From contig CM049316.1 in NCBI GenBank assembly GCA_026874595.1, positions 51,905,676 to 51,969,675 of the forward strand: a DNA stretch of 64,000 nucleotides, in the 5' to 3' direction. This document shows positions 1-45,729 of this stretch, in pieces; positions within the stretch are counted from its first letter, which is position 1; each line of letters opens with the position of its first letter. A model generated the notes under the pieces. It saw nothing but the letters and a program-made list of their open reading frames with translations, was not told the DNA's origin and did not search any database. Both the position numbers and the translations under genes were made by a program. This DNA is from Sipunculus nudus. Taxonomy: Eukaryota; Annelida; Sipuncula; Golfingiida; Sipunculidae.

Positions 1-810
1 TGAAAAACCAAATCTCCTTCAAAATTGATTGATATAAAGTGGATATTTATTTTATGTTTTCTGACATATGCAAATATATCTGTGATTTTCATAATATTTC
101 CCCCTTGTATCGGTTTTTTATAATGAATCCGAATATATAAGCACGCCCCCATTTGTTTAAATAGCTTTTCATCTAATTAAATGGTATGGTGTGGCTGGCT
201 GCGCACTGATGCATAAAGTGGACATATAGTGGACTGCCAACCAGACCACACATCCAACCAGACCAGTTGTGTTTAAGCCCCTTATCCATTATGACCATGT
301 CTTTGTTTATTCGAACAATGAAACAAAATGCAGAGTAAATAAGAGGATTTAAAATTATTAAGCACTAATAATTGCAAGTCAGACTTTTAAAATGTGGCGT
401 AGCGTGATTATTGGTTACCATTTAGATCTCACCAAGTCTTGAAGTAGAAGTAACAGGGACAGAACATAATAAAAACAATTTATATAAATATAGAGAGAAA
501 CGCCTCATCTAAAGTATATATAGTACAGAGTTTAAAAACGTATCATCAAAAGCAAGCATCGAACGCAGTGAAGGAAAACCCGATCTACAATGAGTATAGC
601 CCAGTTAAAGATATTCCACATTTAGAGTAGGTACAGAACACAGGAAAAAGAAATACCTCATCTGCTTGTAAGTATAGAACACAAAGAAAGCAATGCCTCA
701 CATAAGTAATTATAGAACACGGTTAAAGTAAAAACTCATCTAGAGTAATGATATAACCCAGAAAAAACCCTTCTCAATAGTATGGACATACTTGGAGTCC
801 AGTTAGAGAA
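1..810. other. GSS intron, no further exon seen
   Basis: AT-rich sequence downstream of the last visible GSS exon. From about 540 to 810 there is loosely repeated text (tagaacac, aatacctcatct and similar) that may be decayed units of the adjacent minisatellite. No coding block matching the next part of GSS was found. Confidence 0.5.
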
Positions 811-1054
811 ACACCTCATCTAGGGAATATAAATACCTGATCCAGGGAATATAAATACCTGATCCAGAGAATATAAATACCTGATCCAGGGAATAGAAAC
901 ACCTGATCAAGGGAACAGCATTTCCTAATCCAGGGAACAGAATACCTGGTTCAGGGTATAAAAACACCTTATCCATAGATCAGAAATATGTGAACAAGGG
1001 AACAGAAATACCTGATCCAAGAATAGAAATACCTGATCCAAGGAATAGAGTCCA
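811..1054 (-). repeat. Splice-donor minisatellite, 21-22 bp unit
   Basis: About eleven tandem units with minus-strand consensus CTGGATCAGGTATTTATATTC. The founding copy straddles the GSS exon end: the exon closes with CTATTCCTTGGATCAG and the intron opens with GTATTTC. Most units keep CAG|GTATTT or AG|GTGTTT, so in gene sense the intron starts with a ladder of 5' splice-site copies. Some units have decayed, for example TTAGGAAAT and ACATATTT. The outermost units on the intron side are the most alike. Confidence 0.93.
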
Positions 1055-1224
1055 GTAAACGTGGCCCGGATTCTCTCAACAGCGGCGGGATCCTCAATGT
1101 AGCGCTCCACGACACCAGGTGTCGCCAATACCTGCTGGACCTTCTTCGTACCAGCCAGATGATAATGGATACTGGGACATTTGATGGCTTTAGATCGTTC
1201 CAACAGCAGCCGAGCCCGCCACTC
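1033..1224 (-). CDS. GSS: GSS exon with LAGTKKVQQ block
   Basis: Acceptor taatgacag at 1225 and donor GATCAG|GTATTT at 1033|1032 bound 192 nt, exactly 64 codons. It encodes [19 protein letters not shown], then [18 protein letters not shown] and a segment ending [12 protein letters not shown]. Human GSS has [33 protein letters not shown] and RATFAGLYSLD. The lysine in GTKK corresponds to an ATP-contacting residue in the family. Just past the donor the last 14-15 exon bases plus the first intron bases are repeated about eleven times. Later exons are outside the window. Confidence 0.95.
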
Positions 1225-2591: not shown

Positions 2592-3799
2592 GGCATCTGA
2601 GATGCCGTAGTATCCCCGGACATATTAAGCATACCCCATTTTAAAATAGGCACACATCTTCTGAAGTATATATTGACCATGACAGGGCCTAGGTCATAAA
2701 TGTTTGAACATGTTAGACATCATGGTGGAGATTGAAATCCCGTTTCCACAGATTTGAAGACAGATAGGTCCTGTGATATTGACCTTTGACCTTGTGACAC
2801 CAAAATTGATAGGAATCTTCGCCTATTGCCAGGTGAACTATATTTGCAAGAGGGAAGGTCTGGGATGAAAAGTTTGGCTTAATATGCATCCACAATCTTT
2901 TTAAAGATGTGGGTCCTCTAACCATGACCTTTGACCTCATTCCCCCCCCCCCCCCGAATCAATAAGGGTCTTGCTTTTTAAATGGGACATATATAAGTCA
3001 AGTTGGAAATCCATATATCAATAAAATCTGGAATTATCAATCGGAAACTAATTTTTGACAGATGGCTCCTGTGTCCTTGACTTGTGACCTATATGTTCAA
3101 GATGGAAGATCTGGGATGACAAGTTTGGCTTAAAATGCATCCACAATATTTTTTTTAAAATTGCGTGTCCTGTGACCTTGACCTTTGACCCATGACCCTA
3201 GAACCTATAAGGTTCTTACTTTAGTTGTGGGCTAAACATAATTCAAGTTTGAAATCCATATGGCTATCAAAAATGGAGATATCATATGAGGTGCGTGGAT
3301 TTCAGATAATATGGAAATATTCAATTATTCAAAGGCCTCTCTCATGGTAAAGGTCATGATCCAAATATAAATTGACCTCATCCCATAACCCGTCTCTCTA
3401 CATTTTCATAATATGAAAGATTTTTGGCCATTAGTTTTTGACTTATAATGCTGACAGTACTGTCAAGTGGCAATTATGTGGGAATTATAAGGTGTGAAAA
3501 CAAGAAAAGGATAACAGGTGGCGCTACCAGTATCCGGCACATCACAAGGCTATGATTTTTGGACCAATTCATGCAAGCTTTCTTGTTATATTAAGGTCAC
3601 TCTCATAGTAAAGGTCATGTCCCCATTTTAAATAGGCTTCGTCCTCTTACCTCTATCTATACACATGTAAATTTTGATAAAGATCCATGAAATTATTTTG
3701 AGTTATTTCGCTCACATGATTTTTCTGCGGCGGCGGCGGCAATGGCGGCGGCGGGACCGTCATGAAATCATAGTATACCAGATATGTCTGGGGATACAA
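2592..3799. mobile_element. HINE/Helitron-like element, GTATCCCC family, copy A
   Basis: The left end is a hairpin GGCATC-TGA-GATGCC (2592-2606) followed by GTATCCCCGGACATAT. The right end is ATATGTCTGGGGATACA, so subterminal inverted repeats bracket the element and a hairpin lies outside one of them. This is the plan of Helentron-derived non-autonomous elements (HINEs). The core carries TGACCTTGACCTTTGACC-type motifs at about 2771, 2927 and 3175. No protein is encoded. It has inserted into sequence rich in AAGTAATTGTAATCG motifs. Confidence 0.6.
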
Positions 3800-3814
3800 T
3801 TGAAATTACTTTTT

Positions 3815-4205
3815 TCAAGTAACTGTATTTGTAATCGATTACATTTCTAATCCTGGAAAGTAATTGTAATTGTAATCGATAACTTTTGAAAAGTAATTGT
3901 TTGAACAATTAATTTTCACGACTTTTGAGTATGTTTGTCTCAAATGAATATAGATTGTTTAGGTTGTGCCTTTATTAAATTTATTACGACTGTTGAAAAA
4001 TGTTAAGAGCTCAAACCAATCTCTAACCAAGTTGCTGTTATAGCATGAGGTAAATGGTCCTAAAGTAATTGCAAAAGTAATTGCAATACTTTAAGAAGTA
4101 AATGTAATTGATAACTTTTCTGAAAACACAAAAGTAATTGTAACTGTAATCGATTACTTTTTATAGTAATTTGTTATTGTAATCGATTATCTTAAAGGTA
4201 ATTGG
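3815..4205. repeat. AT-rich palindromic repeats with GTAATCGATTAC
   Basis: The stretch repeats AAGTAATTGTAATCGATTAC-like text on both strands; GTAATCGATTAC is a perfect 12-base palindrome seen at least twice. Related motifs also lie left of the inserted element, around 2553-2575. Such palindromes occur near the ends of some DNA transposons, but no clear boundaries were found. Confidence 0.5.
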
Positions 4206-4389
4206 ACCCAAGTCTGGTTACATGACATTATATAGATAGCTATATTAGACATTAAAATTGATTTGATCGGTTGGCCGGGTTGGCCACATATGCCTCAGCG
4301 TGAATGTGATTATATCTGCATGCCGCTGTCGTGTGTTTTAGATAAGGCTGATAAGATCTCTTTTTTTATCAGTTACCCTACCGAGTTAA

Positions 4390-5741
4390 AACAAGTGGCC
4401 CATGGGCCATGACGCTCAGCTGAATTCAAGGAATGTTGAACAATGAGCAAAATGACTGCCAGAGTGCAAAAAAATCATGAATTTTGTAAATAGTCCTTCA
4501 AATGGTTTACAGTGGGCTTTTGGACAGATGACAGATCTGAAGGTCTCATAAATAGAAAGAAAAAATGCGTAAAAATTTGAAAAAAATACAGTTAGTGCCA
4601 CCAGTCTGCAGGAACTGATGAAACTCTCCATGATCAATATATATGCAAAGAATCATGGCTATCAAGGCATTAGTTATTCAGATACTGGAGCTTTTGTATC
4701 AAATTTTTAATTATTCTTGGGGGTACTAACAAGCCCTTTAGTAACAGAGACCTAATTTCAGGTTTCTAAAGAGATTTATTATTAGTCTCCATGGATGTCA
4801 AGTGAGAAGATTCTAGGTTCAACGGTTATGGTTTGTTCCGTTAACAGATGAGCACTTCATTTGAAGGTCTCATAAATAGAGAAAAAAATGCCTAAAAAAT
4901 ATAATTAAGGTGGTGCCACCAGTGTACAAGAACTGATGAGACACTACAAGTATCATAGCCATCAGTGCATTAGTTTTCAGATACTGAAGTTTTTTTATCA
5001 CACTATTAACTGGAAAACGGATAGTCGACAAGGGACAACGTGTATCTGCCGAAGTCAGAGTGGTACAGGTAAAGTGAGGGATGGATTGAGTGGTATGTTA
5101 CACCACTCCTAAATATAGTCCGTTTAATCTCTGAAAAAAAGGCAGTTTTCAAGAAAATTTTCCAAGATGGATAGACATGCCAAATTTAAGATGAATACCT
5201 TGAACCACTCCAGAGATATGAGCAATTTTCACCAAAAGCACATGTACAGATGGACACCACAGCAAAATGATAGCAGATGGCGCCACCAGTCTTGAGTACA
5301 AGATGGAGGAGTCCAAGATCTATGGATATGCACACTTTCAGGCCGATAGTGCAAATCACTCCTCAGAAAGGGCATAAATTTATTTTACTGAAACGAGAAG
5401 GTAGGTGGCGCCACCTGTCTGGTTTACGAAAAACTTTCGAAGATGTTTGGACATATATAAGTCAAGTTTGAAACCCATATGTCAATCCAAGCAAGAGTTA
5501 TCAACAGAAAAAGAATGTTTTGACAGGTAGCTCTTCTAACCTTCACCTTTGACCTTGTGACCTAAAATTGGATAGGGGTCTTCCTCTATTGGCAGGTGAT
5601 CTATATGTGCAAGATAAAAGATCTGAGATGAAACGTTTGGCTGAAAATGCATCCACAATCTTTTCAAGTATGTTTGTCCTGTGACCTCAGATCAATAGGA
5701 ATCTTGTTTTATTGATGATCCATATATAAGTCAAGTTTGAT
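4390..5741. mobile_element. Mosaic of HINE-like fragments
   Basis: It opens with AACAAGTGGCCCATGGGCCA, which contains the 14-base palindrome TGGCCCATGGGCCA (4396-4409), then GACGCTCAGCTGA, the 5' terminus of the second HINE-like family. Core text with AGAGACCTAATTTCAGG follows at about 4750. At about 4992-5085 there is an inverted copy of the 3' terminus seen at 21880-21950. AGGTGGCGCCACCT is at 5403-5416, and DR1-type motifs follow. The Gypsy relic is inserted at its right edge. No coding potential. Confidence 0.5.
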
Positions 5742-22969: not shown

Positions 22970-23535
22970 TCTTTTGAATCTTAAGATCATCCTCTCCCGT
23001 CCTTGAAGAACAGGAGATGAACATCCTGAAGAACGGGACAGGGAGGTCTAGAATAACGGGACAGGGAGGTCCTGAAGACGGGGGATGAAGGTCCTGAAGA
23101 ACGGGACATGGAGGTCCTGAAGAACGGGACAGGGAGGTCCTGAAGAACGGGACAAGGAGGCCCTGAAGAAAGGCAGAAGAAGGTCCTGAAGAACGGCAGA
23201 GGAAGGTCTTGAAGAAAGGCAGAGAAGGTCTTGAAGAAAGGCAGAGAAGATCTTGAAGAAAGGCAGAGGAAGGTCCTGAAGAAAGGCAGAGGAAGGTCCT
23301 GAAGAAAGGCAGTGAAGGTCTTGAAGAAAGGCAGAGAAGGTCTTGAAGAAAGGCAGAGGAAGTCCTGAAGAAAGGCAGAGGAAGGTCCTGATGAACGGGA
23401 GAGGGAGGTCCTAAATACGGGACAGGGAGGTCTAGAAAAACGGGACAGGAAAGTTCTGAAGAACGGGAGAGGAAAGTCCAAAAGAACGGGAAAGGAAGGT
23501 CCTGAAGAACGGGAGGAAAGGTCCTGAAGAACATA
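22970..23535. repeat. 23-bp minisatellite, acceptor-like in GSS sense
   Basis: About 24 head-to-tail units of 22-23 bp, plus-strand consensus GTCCTGAAGAACGGGACAGG or GTCCTGAAGAAAGGCAGAGG. On the minus strand each unit reads as a pyrimidine run ending TTCTTCAG|GAC, close to a 3' splice-site consensus. Two subtypes (AACGGGACAGG and AAAGGCAGAGG) form blocks, so the array grew by local duplication. Two ~200-codon minus frames over it are by-products of a unit without stops. Confidence 0.92.
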
Positions 23536-43627: not shown

Positions 43628-43703
43628 CTGCTTTATTCCTTCTCCTCTGACGGTTTCATAGATCTTCCAGATCCGTCTTGTGAAGTCATCTACTTGAATA
43701 ACC
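43628..43703 (-). CDS. GSS: GSS exon 3
   Basis: A 76-nt exon between acceptor ttgtag|GG at 43705-43704 and donor AAGCAG|GTGCTG at 43627-43626. It completes the split codon from exon 2 and encodes RVIQVDDFTRRIWKIYETV followed by RGEGIKQ. This matches the human [20 protein letters not shown] segment. It leaves phase 0, as required by the next exon at 26297. The donor is a weak GTGCTG but phase and homology on both sides support it. The downstream intron is about 17.3 kb and holds the Penelope, LINE, TRIM and degenerate Gypsy insertions. Confidence 0.92.
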
Positions 43704-44109
43704 CTACAATGTGAGTTCATTAAAATTATCATGGAAAAATCTTGAAAGAAACACTTTTAAATAAATATATTTAGCGGCATAAGGTCCAATAATTGCAAAA
43801 CTCATGCTCTTAATACGTTCATAACTTTTCATAGAAATATATTTAGATCATTATATTGTACAACACTGTATCAATGTCTATTGCCATTATATTTGTATAA
43901 TTAATGATGTACTTTGGGTGGTTCGAAGAAACCTCACTATCGACATTTTAATAATAAGACTAGATAACTAGTCCATGAGAGATATAAAAACTTAACATAT
44001 TCCAAACCCGCAACAATCTGGAAATTTATAGTTCAACAAATGCACTTTCACCCTCAAGATATTGGGATATATAATCCTTTGTTCTACATTAACCCCCGTA
44101 CTACGTTGT

Positions 44110-44932
44110 ATAAGGAACCTTTGAAAACAGTCTCTTGAGCTAGTAACAGATGTAAAGAAACCTGTGCCAGAAGTCTCTTGAGGAAGTTGCAGTTGTGAAA
44201 GAAACCTGTGTCAACAGTCTCTTGAGGAAGTAGCAGTAATAAAAGAAACTTGAGTCAACAGTCTCTTGAGGAAGAAGCAGTTGTAAAAGAAACCTGTTTC
44301 AACAGTCTCTTGAGGAAGTGGCTGTTGTAAAAGGAACCTGTGTCAACAGTCTCCTGAGGAAGGAGCAGTAGTAAAAGAAACCTGTGTCATCAGTCTCTTG
44401 AGGAAGTGATGTTTATATAACGTACCTGTGTAAACAGTCTCTTTTGGAACTGATGTTTATATAATGAACCTGTGTAAACAGTCTCTTAGGGAAGTGATGT
44501 TTTTATAAAGTACATGTGTTAGCAGTCTCTTGAGTAGTGATGTTTATATAACTTACCTGTGTAAACAGTGTCCTAAGGAAGTGATGTTTATGTAACGTAC
44601 CTGTGTAAACAGTCTCTTAGGGAATTATGTTTATGTAATGTACATGTGTAAACAGTCTCTTGAGGAAGCAATGTTTATATAACGTACCTGTGTAAGCAGT
44701 CTCTTGTGGAATGATGTTTATATAACGTACCTGTGTAAACAGTCTCTTGAGGAAGTGATGTTTAAATAACGAACCTGTGTAAACAGTCTCTTGAGGAAAT
44801 GATGCTTATATGACGTACCTGTATAAACAGTCTCTTTAGGAATTGATGTTTATATAACATCCTGTGTAAACAGTCTCTTGAGGAAGTGATGTTTATATAA
44901 CGTACCTGTGTAAACAATCTCTCAAGAAGTCG
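44110..44932 (-). repeat. Splice-donor minisatellite, 44-bp unit
   Basis: About 19 units. In GSS sense a unit runs TTCCTCAAGAGACTG, TTTACACAGGTACGT, TATATAAACATCA. The founding copy spans the end of GSS exon 2 (TTCTTGAGAGATTGTTTACA, CAG) and its donor GTACGT at 44905. Donor-like cores across the array include GTACGT (many), GTTCGT, GTTTCT and one perfect GTAAGT (44556-44551). The units nearest the exon look most like it; those at the far end carry TCAACAG and GTTTCTTT variants. The array fills about two thirds of the intron. Confidence 0.95.
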
Positions 44933-45092
44933 TAGTCGTGCGCTACTTTGTGCATCAAGAGGTTTAAGTCTGTTTGCACATCTCGTGCCTGGTAGAAGAG
45001 CTGCTTTGGGACGGAACATGGAAGCAAAGTGACAGGTGCGTGGGCAGCTACATCTCCTGAACCAGGGTTTTGTCGAGTCCGCACTAAGGCTC
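44906..45092 (-). CDS. GSS: GSS exon 2
   Basis: The exon runs from acceptor ttctag|GAGCC to donor CACAG|GTACGT, 187 nt, entered in phase 1 and left in phase 2. It encodes GALVRTRQNPGSGDVAAHAP, then VTLLPCSVPKQLFYQARDVQ, then TDLNLLMHKVAHDYDFLRDC and LH. These align with human GSS around the YAPFTLFPSLVP block and the following helix (VQMDFNLLVDAVSQ). The last 20 or so exon bases and the donor are the founding unit of the 44-bp minisatellite that fills the downstream intron. Reading continues open into the array in one frame, but family homology ends at the donor. Confidence 0.93.
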
Positions 45093-45227
45093 CTAGAACC
45101 AAAATTAGCATGCAGAGTATGTGTGAGATTTACATGTGCAGCGAAGAATACATGAAATGGGCACATGTATAACTCCCTGCTTATAGATGAGGTAAGACCC
45201 TAGACTCGAGTCGAACTTGAACCCGTC

Positions 45228-45545
45228 TACTTTTGTCATATATCACTACATGTCGATATATCAGCCCGTACTTTTTTGTCATATAACAAACACTTCGTGT
45301 CGATATATCAGCCCGTCTGCTGTTGTTATATAACATCATTTGTCGATATATCAACCCGTCTGCTTGTCATAAAACACGTGCGATATATCAGCCCGTTTGC
45401 TTTTGTCATATAACACCACTTGTCGATATATGAGCCCGTACTTTTTTTGTCATATAACACTACCTGTCGATATATCAGCCCGTGTGCTTTCGTCAGATAA
45501 CACTACATGTCGATATATCAGCCCGTCTGTTTAGCCATATATCAT
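45228..45545. repeat. 43-bp minisatellite in GSS intron 1
   Basis: Seven to eight units built on CGATATATCAGCCCGTCTG and GTCATATAACACTACATGT. It sits between exons 1 and 2. Unlike the 44-bp array, it does not resemble either flanking splice site. Units vary by indels in a T run. Confidence 0.9.
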
Positions 45546-45641
45546 TACATATCAGGACATCATCTCATTTAACATTAAATATTTCAATGACATTTAAAAT
45601 TATATATCATTATCAGCTAGTGTATCAGTCACTCTGCTTAC

Positions 45642-45729
45642 CGTGAGTCATCACATAATCTTTCGCCCAAGGTATGAGGTCTTCAAGTTGATCACACGAA
45701 AGAGGCATATTGAAACACCCTTGCATTAT
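45642..45729 (-). CDS. GSS: GSS exon 1 (first coding exon)
   Basis: The acceptor is a pyrimidine-rich tcctcttcag followed by ATAATG, so an upstream non-coding exon is expected. Translation starts at the ATG at 45726-45724, giving MQGCFNMPLSCDQLEDLI and continuing PWAKDYVMTHG. This matches the N-terminal helix of animal GSS, for example the LQDKQQLEELA region of the human protein. The donor is CACG|GTAAGC at 45642|45641 and leaves phase 1. It joins in frame to the exon at 45092. No upstream in-frame ATG is visible before the acceptor. The promoter was not located. Identity rests on the joined sequence; this exon alone is weakly diagnostic. Confidence 0.85.

Follow-up and report, generated by a model that had tools for sequence, protein, structure and literature searches.

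The GSS gene of Sipunculus nudus carries a minisatellite that spans the 5' splice site of exon 2. About 19 copies of a 44-bp unit (44106..44930, minus strand) begin inside the exon and take up 800 of the 1,202 nt of intron 2 (positions are those of the window, the whole stretch of 64,000 nucleotides that was analysed). Very probably the array is a tolerated duplication of the kind published as mirages: the first donor would be used, and the ladder of donor copies behind it would need no function.

Anatomy and origin of the exon 2 array

We found that exons 1, 2 and 3 of the window gene, with AG/GT borders, give a single open frame when joined (...DYDFLRDCLHR|VIQVDDFTRR...). Because the frame is continuous over the three exons, the end of exon 2 is well supported. 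Exon 1 (45642..45729, minus strand; ATG at 45726-45724, donor CACG|GTAAGC) and exon 2 (44906..45092, minus strand) together match Pfam GSH_synth_ATP (5e-19). Exon 3 (VIQVDDFTRRIWKIYETVRGEGIKQ; 43628..43703, minus strand) was placed by homology and open-frame joining. Intron 2 (43704..44905, minus strand) opens with the authentic donor of exon 2, GTACGT, at 44905. An intron 2 of 18 kb was considered and rejected, as exon 3 lies only 1.2 kb further on. A family search found a second GSS gene, on contig C3, and the protein joined from its exons matches human glutathione synthetase 2HGS (1.8e-60). Counted from homology, each of the two genes has 11 exons.

The array was built from the exon-2 donor region, as a preliminary description of this DNA had proposed, and three methods recover it. 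TRF reported a 44-bp period with 16.4 copies at 44204-44922 and an overlapping row from 44105. Manual cutting gave 19 units of 43-44 bp. Wraparound alignment placed the array at 44930-44106, with 18.8 copies and a mean identity to the unit of 0.86. The array starts within exon 2, with its first 25 nt there by alignment and 17 nt by TRF. In the alignment, unit 1 is the genuine exon 2 end (44930-44906) plus the donor GTACGT, so the authentic donor is the first rung of the ladder, again as proposed. The unit does consist of exon tail, donor and intron bases; its division is 25 exonic and 19 intronic nt, and the figures first given (~23 and ~21) did not stand. The intron head of units 1-12 is the present one (like GTACGTTATATAAACA). 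Units 13-19 have the exonic half in common with units 1-12 and a different intron head (like GTTTCTTTTACAACTG).

We found that the end of exon 2 is homologous to the unit. The tails of the two differ by an edit distance of 4 over 25-26 bases, which was equalled by none of 20,000 shuffles. Without gaps, the exon end matches at 19 of 26 positions, compared with 18 of 26 at the best other place in 119 kb, so the homology of the upstream part of the unit depends on allowing an indel. The exonic half of the unit is 3 edits from the exon end of the C3 paralogue and 4 from its own, and the two exons are 7 edits apart. These distances, over a short stretch, would fit an array that is older than some of the changes in the exons.

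Could the array be an artefact of assembly, or an unrelated satellite that adjoins the exon by chance? Assemblies often go wrong in tandem arrays, and this genome is very rich in minisatellites. However, the units differ from one another, as their mean identity to the unit indicates, and the exon tail is itself unit 1. In addition, a 36-base pattern from the unit, with up to 3 mismatches allowed, had at least nine matches in the 1.43-Gb genome, and all nine lay within the window array. We regard both possibilities as highly improbable.

Published repeats across exon-intron boundaries

Judged by its sequence, the window array belongs to a known kind, the mirages, which are minisatellites that span an exon-intron boundary. 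The preliminary description had held that no family of such arrays was described; amphioxus mirages and a 31-bp VNTR in human CBS are both published. The mirages, published from cephalochordates, are reported as minisatellite-like repeats across exon-intron boundaries in Adh3 (units of 10-72 bp) and the globin genes BflGb6 and BflGb9; they are reported to be unstable in length and in the soma, and a part in intron gain has been proposed for them (PMC3087553). A second paper adds troponin C and PGBD5 to the mirage genes (PMC3902484). The 44-bp unit falls inside the published range of unit sizes (10-72 and 150-160 bp). Like the mirages as reported, the window array has short units that span the exon-intron boundary (25 exonic and 19 intronic nt), and AG/GT occurs in many but not all of them (14 of the 18 downstream copies). 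There are also differences. Mirages are described at both 5' and 3' boundaries, whereas in the GSS pair arrays were found at 5 of 20 donors (4 by TRF) and 0 of 20 acceptors. The amphioxus reports include RNA and instability data, whereas the GSS array is known from one assembly.

The name of the CBS repeat, c.1444_1467+7(16_21), implies a unit of 24 exonic plus 7 intronic bases (PMC2630376). As in the GSS array, an exon end and its donor are repeated (16-21 times in CBS), and the copies carry substitutions. Unlike the GSS array, the CBS repeat has a 31-bp unit, lies in another gene, and has copy-number alleles known in people.

Tandem duplication of AGGT or boundary sequence has been put forward as a route of intron gain (the Rogers model as cited; PMC4974935), and repeats at exon-intron boundaries are reported for human duplicated genes (PMC2812944). 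The window array shares with these models (PMC4974935, PMC2812944) a tandem duplication across a splice site, and its geometry resembles that of duplication models (PMC4974935, PMC3087553). This likeness favours the earlier suggestion that the array is a step in intron birth through AGGT duplication. However, exons 2 and 3 of the C3 paralogue meet at the same junction and in the same phase, with no array there by TRF. Intron 2 is therefore older than the array or independent of it. Unlike the case in the models, no new intron has come from the GSS array, and we give intron birth very little credence here.

Donor copies and the splicing of intron 2

We found that many downstream copies keep AG|GT with a good donor, in line with the preliminary description. 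GT is present at the aligned donor position in 17 of 18 downstream copies, and AGGT in 14 of 18. Scored with a donor matrix for human sites, 7 of the 18 reach at least 4 and 6 equal or exceed the authentic donor. One of these six, GTAAGT, scores 12.6 vs 9.8 for the authentic donor. Copy 2, the closest competitor of the authentic donor, has lost its GT (AG|GATG). The donors of copies 13-19 are GTTTCT-like and weaker.

A stop codon lies 10 nt past the authentic donor. Read-through finishes one codon and then adds YVI (RYVI*), so a longer exon 2 would be non-productive. This stop speaks against variable exon ends as useful isoforms, another of the roles first suggested. It would suit a splice-regulatory ladder, in which downstream donors would yield poison isoforms, NMD would tune GSS output, and copy number would set the level. 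Every extension meets the stop after 10 nt, seven downstream donors score at least 4 and six reach the authentic score, and the human CBS repeat offers a precedent, as a cited title ties that VNTR to reduced CBS activity (PMC2630376). Set against the ladder are the loss of GT in copy 2, the absence of an array at the exon-2 donor of the paralogue (by TRF), and the conservation of the donor block, which in the window array is no better kept than the spacer (rank 32/44 among rotations of the unit). We consider a regulatory ladder unlikely.

We found no consistent trend in donor-block conservation among the 12 aligned arrays that were ranked (five in the GSS pair, the intron-1 array and six elsewhere). 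For the five GSS arrays the ranks were 32/44, 4/22, 25/42, 4/40 and 30/35. The extremes were 1/32 (locus L066) and 39/43 (intron 1). The high rank of the block in two GSS arrays (4/22 and 4/40), in L066 and in locus L071 (5/42) counts against an unused ladder.

In favour of an array of U1-binding sites, acting as a sponge or as a guard against premature polyadenylation, 6 of the 18 downstream donors match or pass the authentic score. However, conservation specific to the donor is not consistent, intron 2 is short, and copies 13-19 have the weaker GTTTCT-like donors. Such a role is scarcely probable.

Each AG|GT unit could also combine an acceptor with a donor, so that multiples of 44 nt would be removed stepwise and the message would come out right whichever donor was used. 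The 14 downstream copies with AGGT are compatible with dual-specific or recursive splicing of this sort, of which human UBC, with its tandem dual-specific sites, is a documented case (PMC10809524). Like the window array, polyubiquitin UBC has tandem AG|GT sites, and its introns can span whole numbers of repeat units. In contrast, the units of UBC are coding monomers, and the GSS array lies in an intron and meets a stop after 10 nt. The arrangement is also not general, as downstream AGGT is absent from three of the five GSS arrays (0/27 copies at C3 exon 1, 0/6 at C3 exon 8 and 0/4 at C3 exon 9), and intron 2 is only 1.2 kb long. Pyrimidines make up 0.47 of the bases before AG in the units, a value that falls between the extremes of 5 acceptors (0.38-0.75; those found of 7 motifs sought). 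It is likewise 0.47 in exon ends with arrays (n=4) and 0.39 in those without (n=14), a comparison that leaves out 2 of the 20 donors (window exon 2 and C3 exon 10). We think recursive splicing very unlikely.

Our preferred reading is that the array is tolerated because the sequence after the first donor is still intron. An unused ladder is supported by the lack of consistent donor conservation, the missing GT in copy 2, and the stop 10 nt in. Because donor conservation is inconsistent and AGGT is absent from three GSS arrays, the array can be explained without invoking donor function or recursive splicing. Published mirages are reported to leave regular splicing undisturbed (PMC3087553), and the continuous frame of exons 1-3 fits regular splicing of the GSS mRNA despite the array. 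A short piece reaching from the exon-2 end into intron 2 would have been duplicated head to tail in DNA, and further slippage or unequal exchange would have raised the number to about 19 copies. With the first GT in use, the mRNA would be unchanged and all later copies would stay intron. The surplus donors would then decay at the pace of the rest of the unit. As a counterpoint, six downstream donors match or exceed the authentic score, GTAAGT clearly so, and plain competition among such strong donors might predict mis-splicing.

Arrays at other donors

We found arrays at other donors of the two GSS genes. A second donor-seeded array in the window (782..1049, minus strand) consists of about 12 copies of a 22-bp unit (TCTATTCCCTGGATCAG|GTATT); it follows exon 8 (1033..1224, minus strand) and starts 17 nt within it. 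In the paralogue, intron 1 contains about 28 copies of a 42-bp unit made of the exon 1 end plus GTAAGTTT, and the alignment reaches 39 nt into the exon. In the 40-bp array behind exon 8 of the paralogue, GT is missing from the donor position in all 6 downstream copies. A 35-bp array follows exon 9 and starts exactly at the donor. The unit lengths of the five GSS arrays (44, 22, 42, 40 and 35 bp) and their sequences differ, so the arrays look independent. Similar events, probably separate ones, would have occurred at these donors and in further genes.

The arrays compared with exons have a period of at least 8 and at least 3 copies, with overlapping rows removed. By wraparound alignment, arrays start 0-39 nt upstream of 5 of the 20 donors of the GSS pair (window exons 2 and 8; C3 exons 1, 8 and 9). 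By TRF the count is 4 of 20, at 0-36 nt upstream, as the C3 exon-8 array then starts 18 nt downstream of its donor. Arrays abut 0 of the 20 acceptors, and the nearest array end is at least 130 nt away (some acceptor positions are approximate). The contrast between donors and acceptors is weak (two-sided Fisher test, 0.047 for 5/20 vs 0/20 and 0.106 for 4/20 vs 0/20), and it covers 20 donors and 20 acceptors of two genes in one assembly. The tolerance of chance duplications alone does not account for donors without acceptors, weak as the contrast is.

Eleven arrays in 153 kb have a TRF score of at least 200. Five of them (alignment) or four (TRF) begin at a donor, where 0.059 would be expected, a rate some 70-85 times that expected from array density. 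The binomial probability is 2e-9 or 3e-7, and 1.4e-7 or 1.5e-5 with the window array removed; these values assume uniform placement and use 41-nt windows set after the data were seen.

Other arrays of the GSS pair lie away from donors. A 43-bp array of about 7.6 copies in GSS intron 1 (window 45222-45548, minus strand) was considered as donor-derived and rejected, as both TRF and the alignment start it 93 nt past the donor. A 23-bp array of 23.5 copies (GTTCTTCAGGACCTTCCTCTCCC) occupies a GSS intron at window 22999-23532 (minus strand), and its 3' end meets copies in the opposite orientation. Between exons 7 and 8 of the paralogue (C3 90678808-90676603) there is a 52-bp array of about 42 copies, 629 nt past the exon-7 donor.

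To look beyond GSS, we searched the genome for three AGGTRAGT motifs 22-52 bases apart, which gave at least 13 distinct places with arrays, located on C1 and at the beginning of C2. Twelve of the listed places were examined (the one on C2 near 6.06 Mb was left out), and the 5' end of the array was visible in nine; in L064, L065 and L068 it fell outside the sequence examined. In five of the nine (L061, L063, L066, L069 and L071), an open frame extends as far as the first donor, and the array starts 21-72 nt within it. Three of these five exon-like stretches have protein support. That of L066 matches Pyridoxal_deC (3.5e-9), and that of L071 matches ABC_membrane (3.1e-6; 27.5 bits, slightly below the curated 28). 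The L069 stretch resembles a PH domain at 0.016, under the cut-off, and SKAP55 in the PDB (1u5d) at 8e-4. L061 and L063 have no family match, and their frames of 47 and 33 codons are possible by chance at that length. The other four lack such a start. No exon was recognised at the array in L031, L062 or L070, and L067 was rejected as exon-anchored, since its array begins 57 nt past a donor-like site. Because all these places were picked by a donor motif, they show that such arrays exist in other genes, not how frequent they are.

Genome-wide enrichment of donor-bearing arrays was not shown. The AGGTRAGT triple pattern had 2,396 matches, compared with 1,472 for a reversed-pattern control, and a few long arrays dominate these numbers. 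Among the matches listed, the first 7.6 Mb of C1 held 2 distinct arrays for the donor pattern and 4 for the control. An acceptor-like pattern (TTTNCAGG three times) had 3,555 matches vs 2,064 for its control. Within the first 8.5 Mb of C1 it marked 7 distinct places, which exceeds the number for the donor pattern; none was traced to exons. Acceptor-motif arrays are at least as numerous as donor-motif ones, and arrays at acceptors may exist elsewhere in the genome.

We tentatively raise the possibility, which on present counts we think rather doubtful, that minisatellites in this genome arise preferentially at 5' splice sites, through a donor-linked event that would repeatedly seed exon ends rather than exon starts and leave ladders in many genes. 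An R-loop or a U1-bound donor, acting at the level of the transcript, could be the cause, as could strong selection against duplications of acceptors. A literature search, mostly without subscription papers, found no count of boundary arrays at donors versus acceptors. Taken by itself, the window array adds one case to a published, little-known phenomenon. What is notable is the density: in one gene pair, between one in five and one in four donors gave rise to an array. If that density held genome-wide, duplications at donors and acceptors could be counted directly, the choice of the spliceosome among many equal donors could be tested, and boundary duplication, proposed as raw material of intron gain, could be viewed.

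Three of the loci showed further features. At L066 (C1 near 80.74 Mb), related 32-bp array sequence flanks the decarboxylase-like exon on both sides (1-205 and 354-1299), and the 32-bp unit matches the end of that exon, which suggests that exon and array together have a duplicate upstream. At L061 (C1 near 6.78 Mb), the exon-like stretch (about 434-506) itself takes in some 1.7 units of its 41-bp array; the exon end looks as though it had shifted downstream by one unit. L012, on a 50-kb contig (C107), has intronless-looking reading frames of eukaryote-type GSS at about 3478-4870, with a frame change; they possibly come from a contaminant or symbiont.
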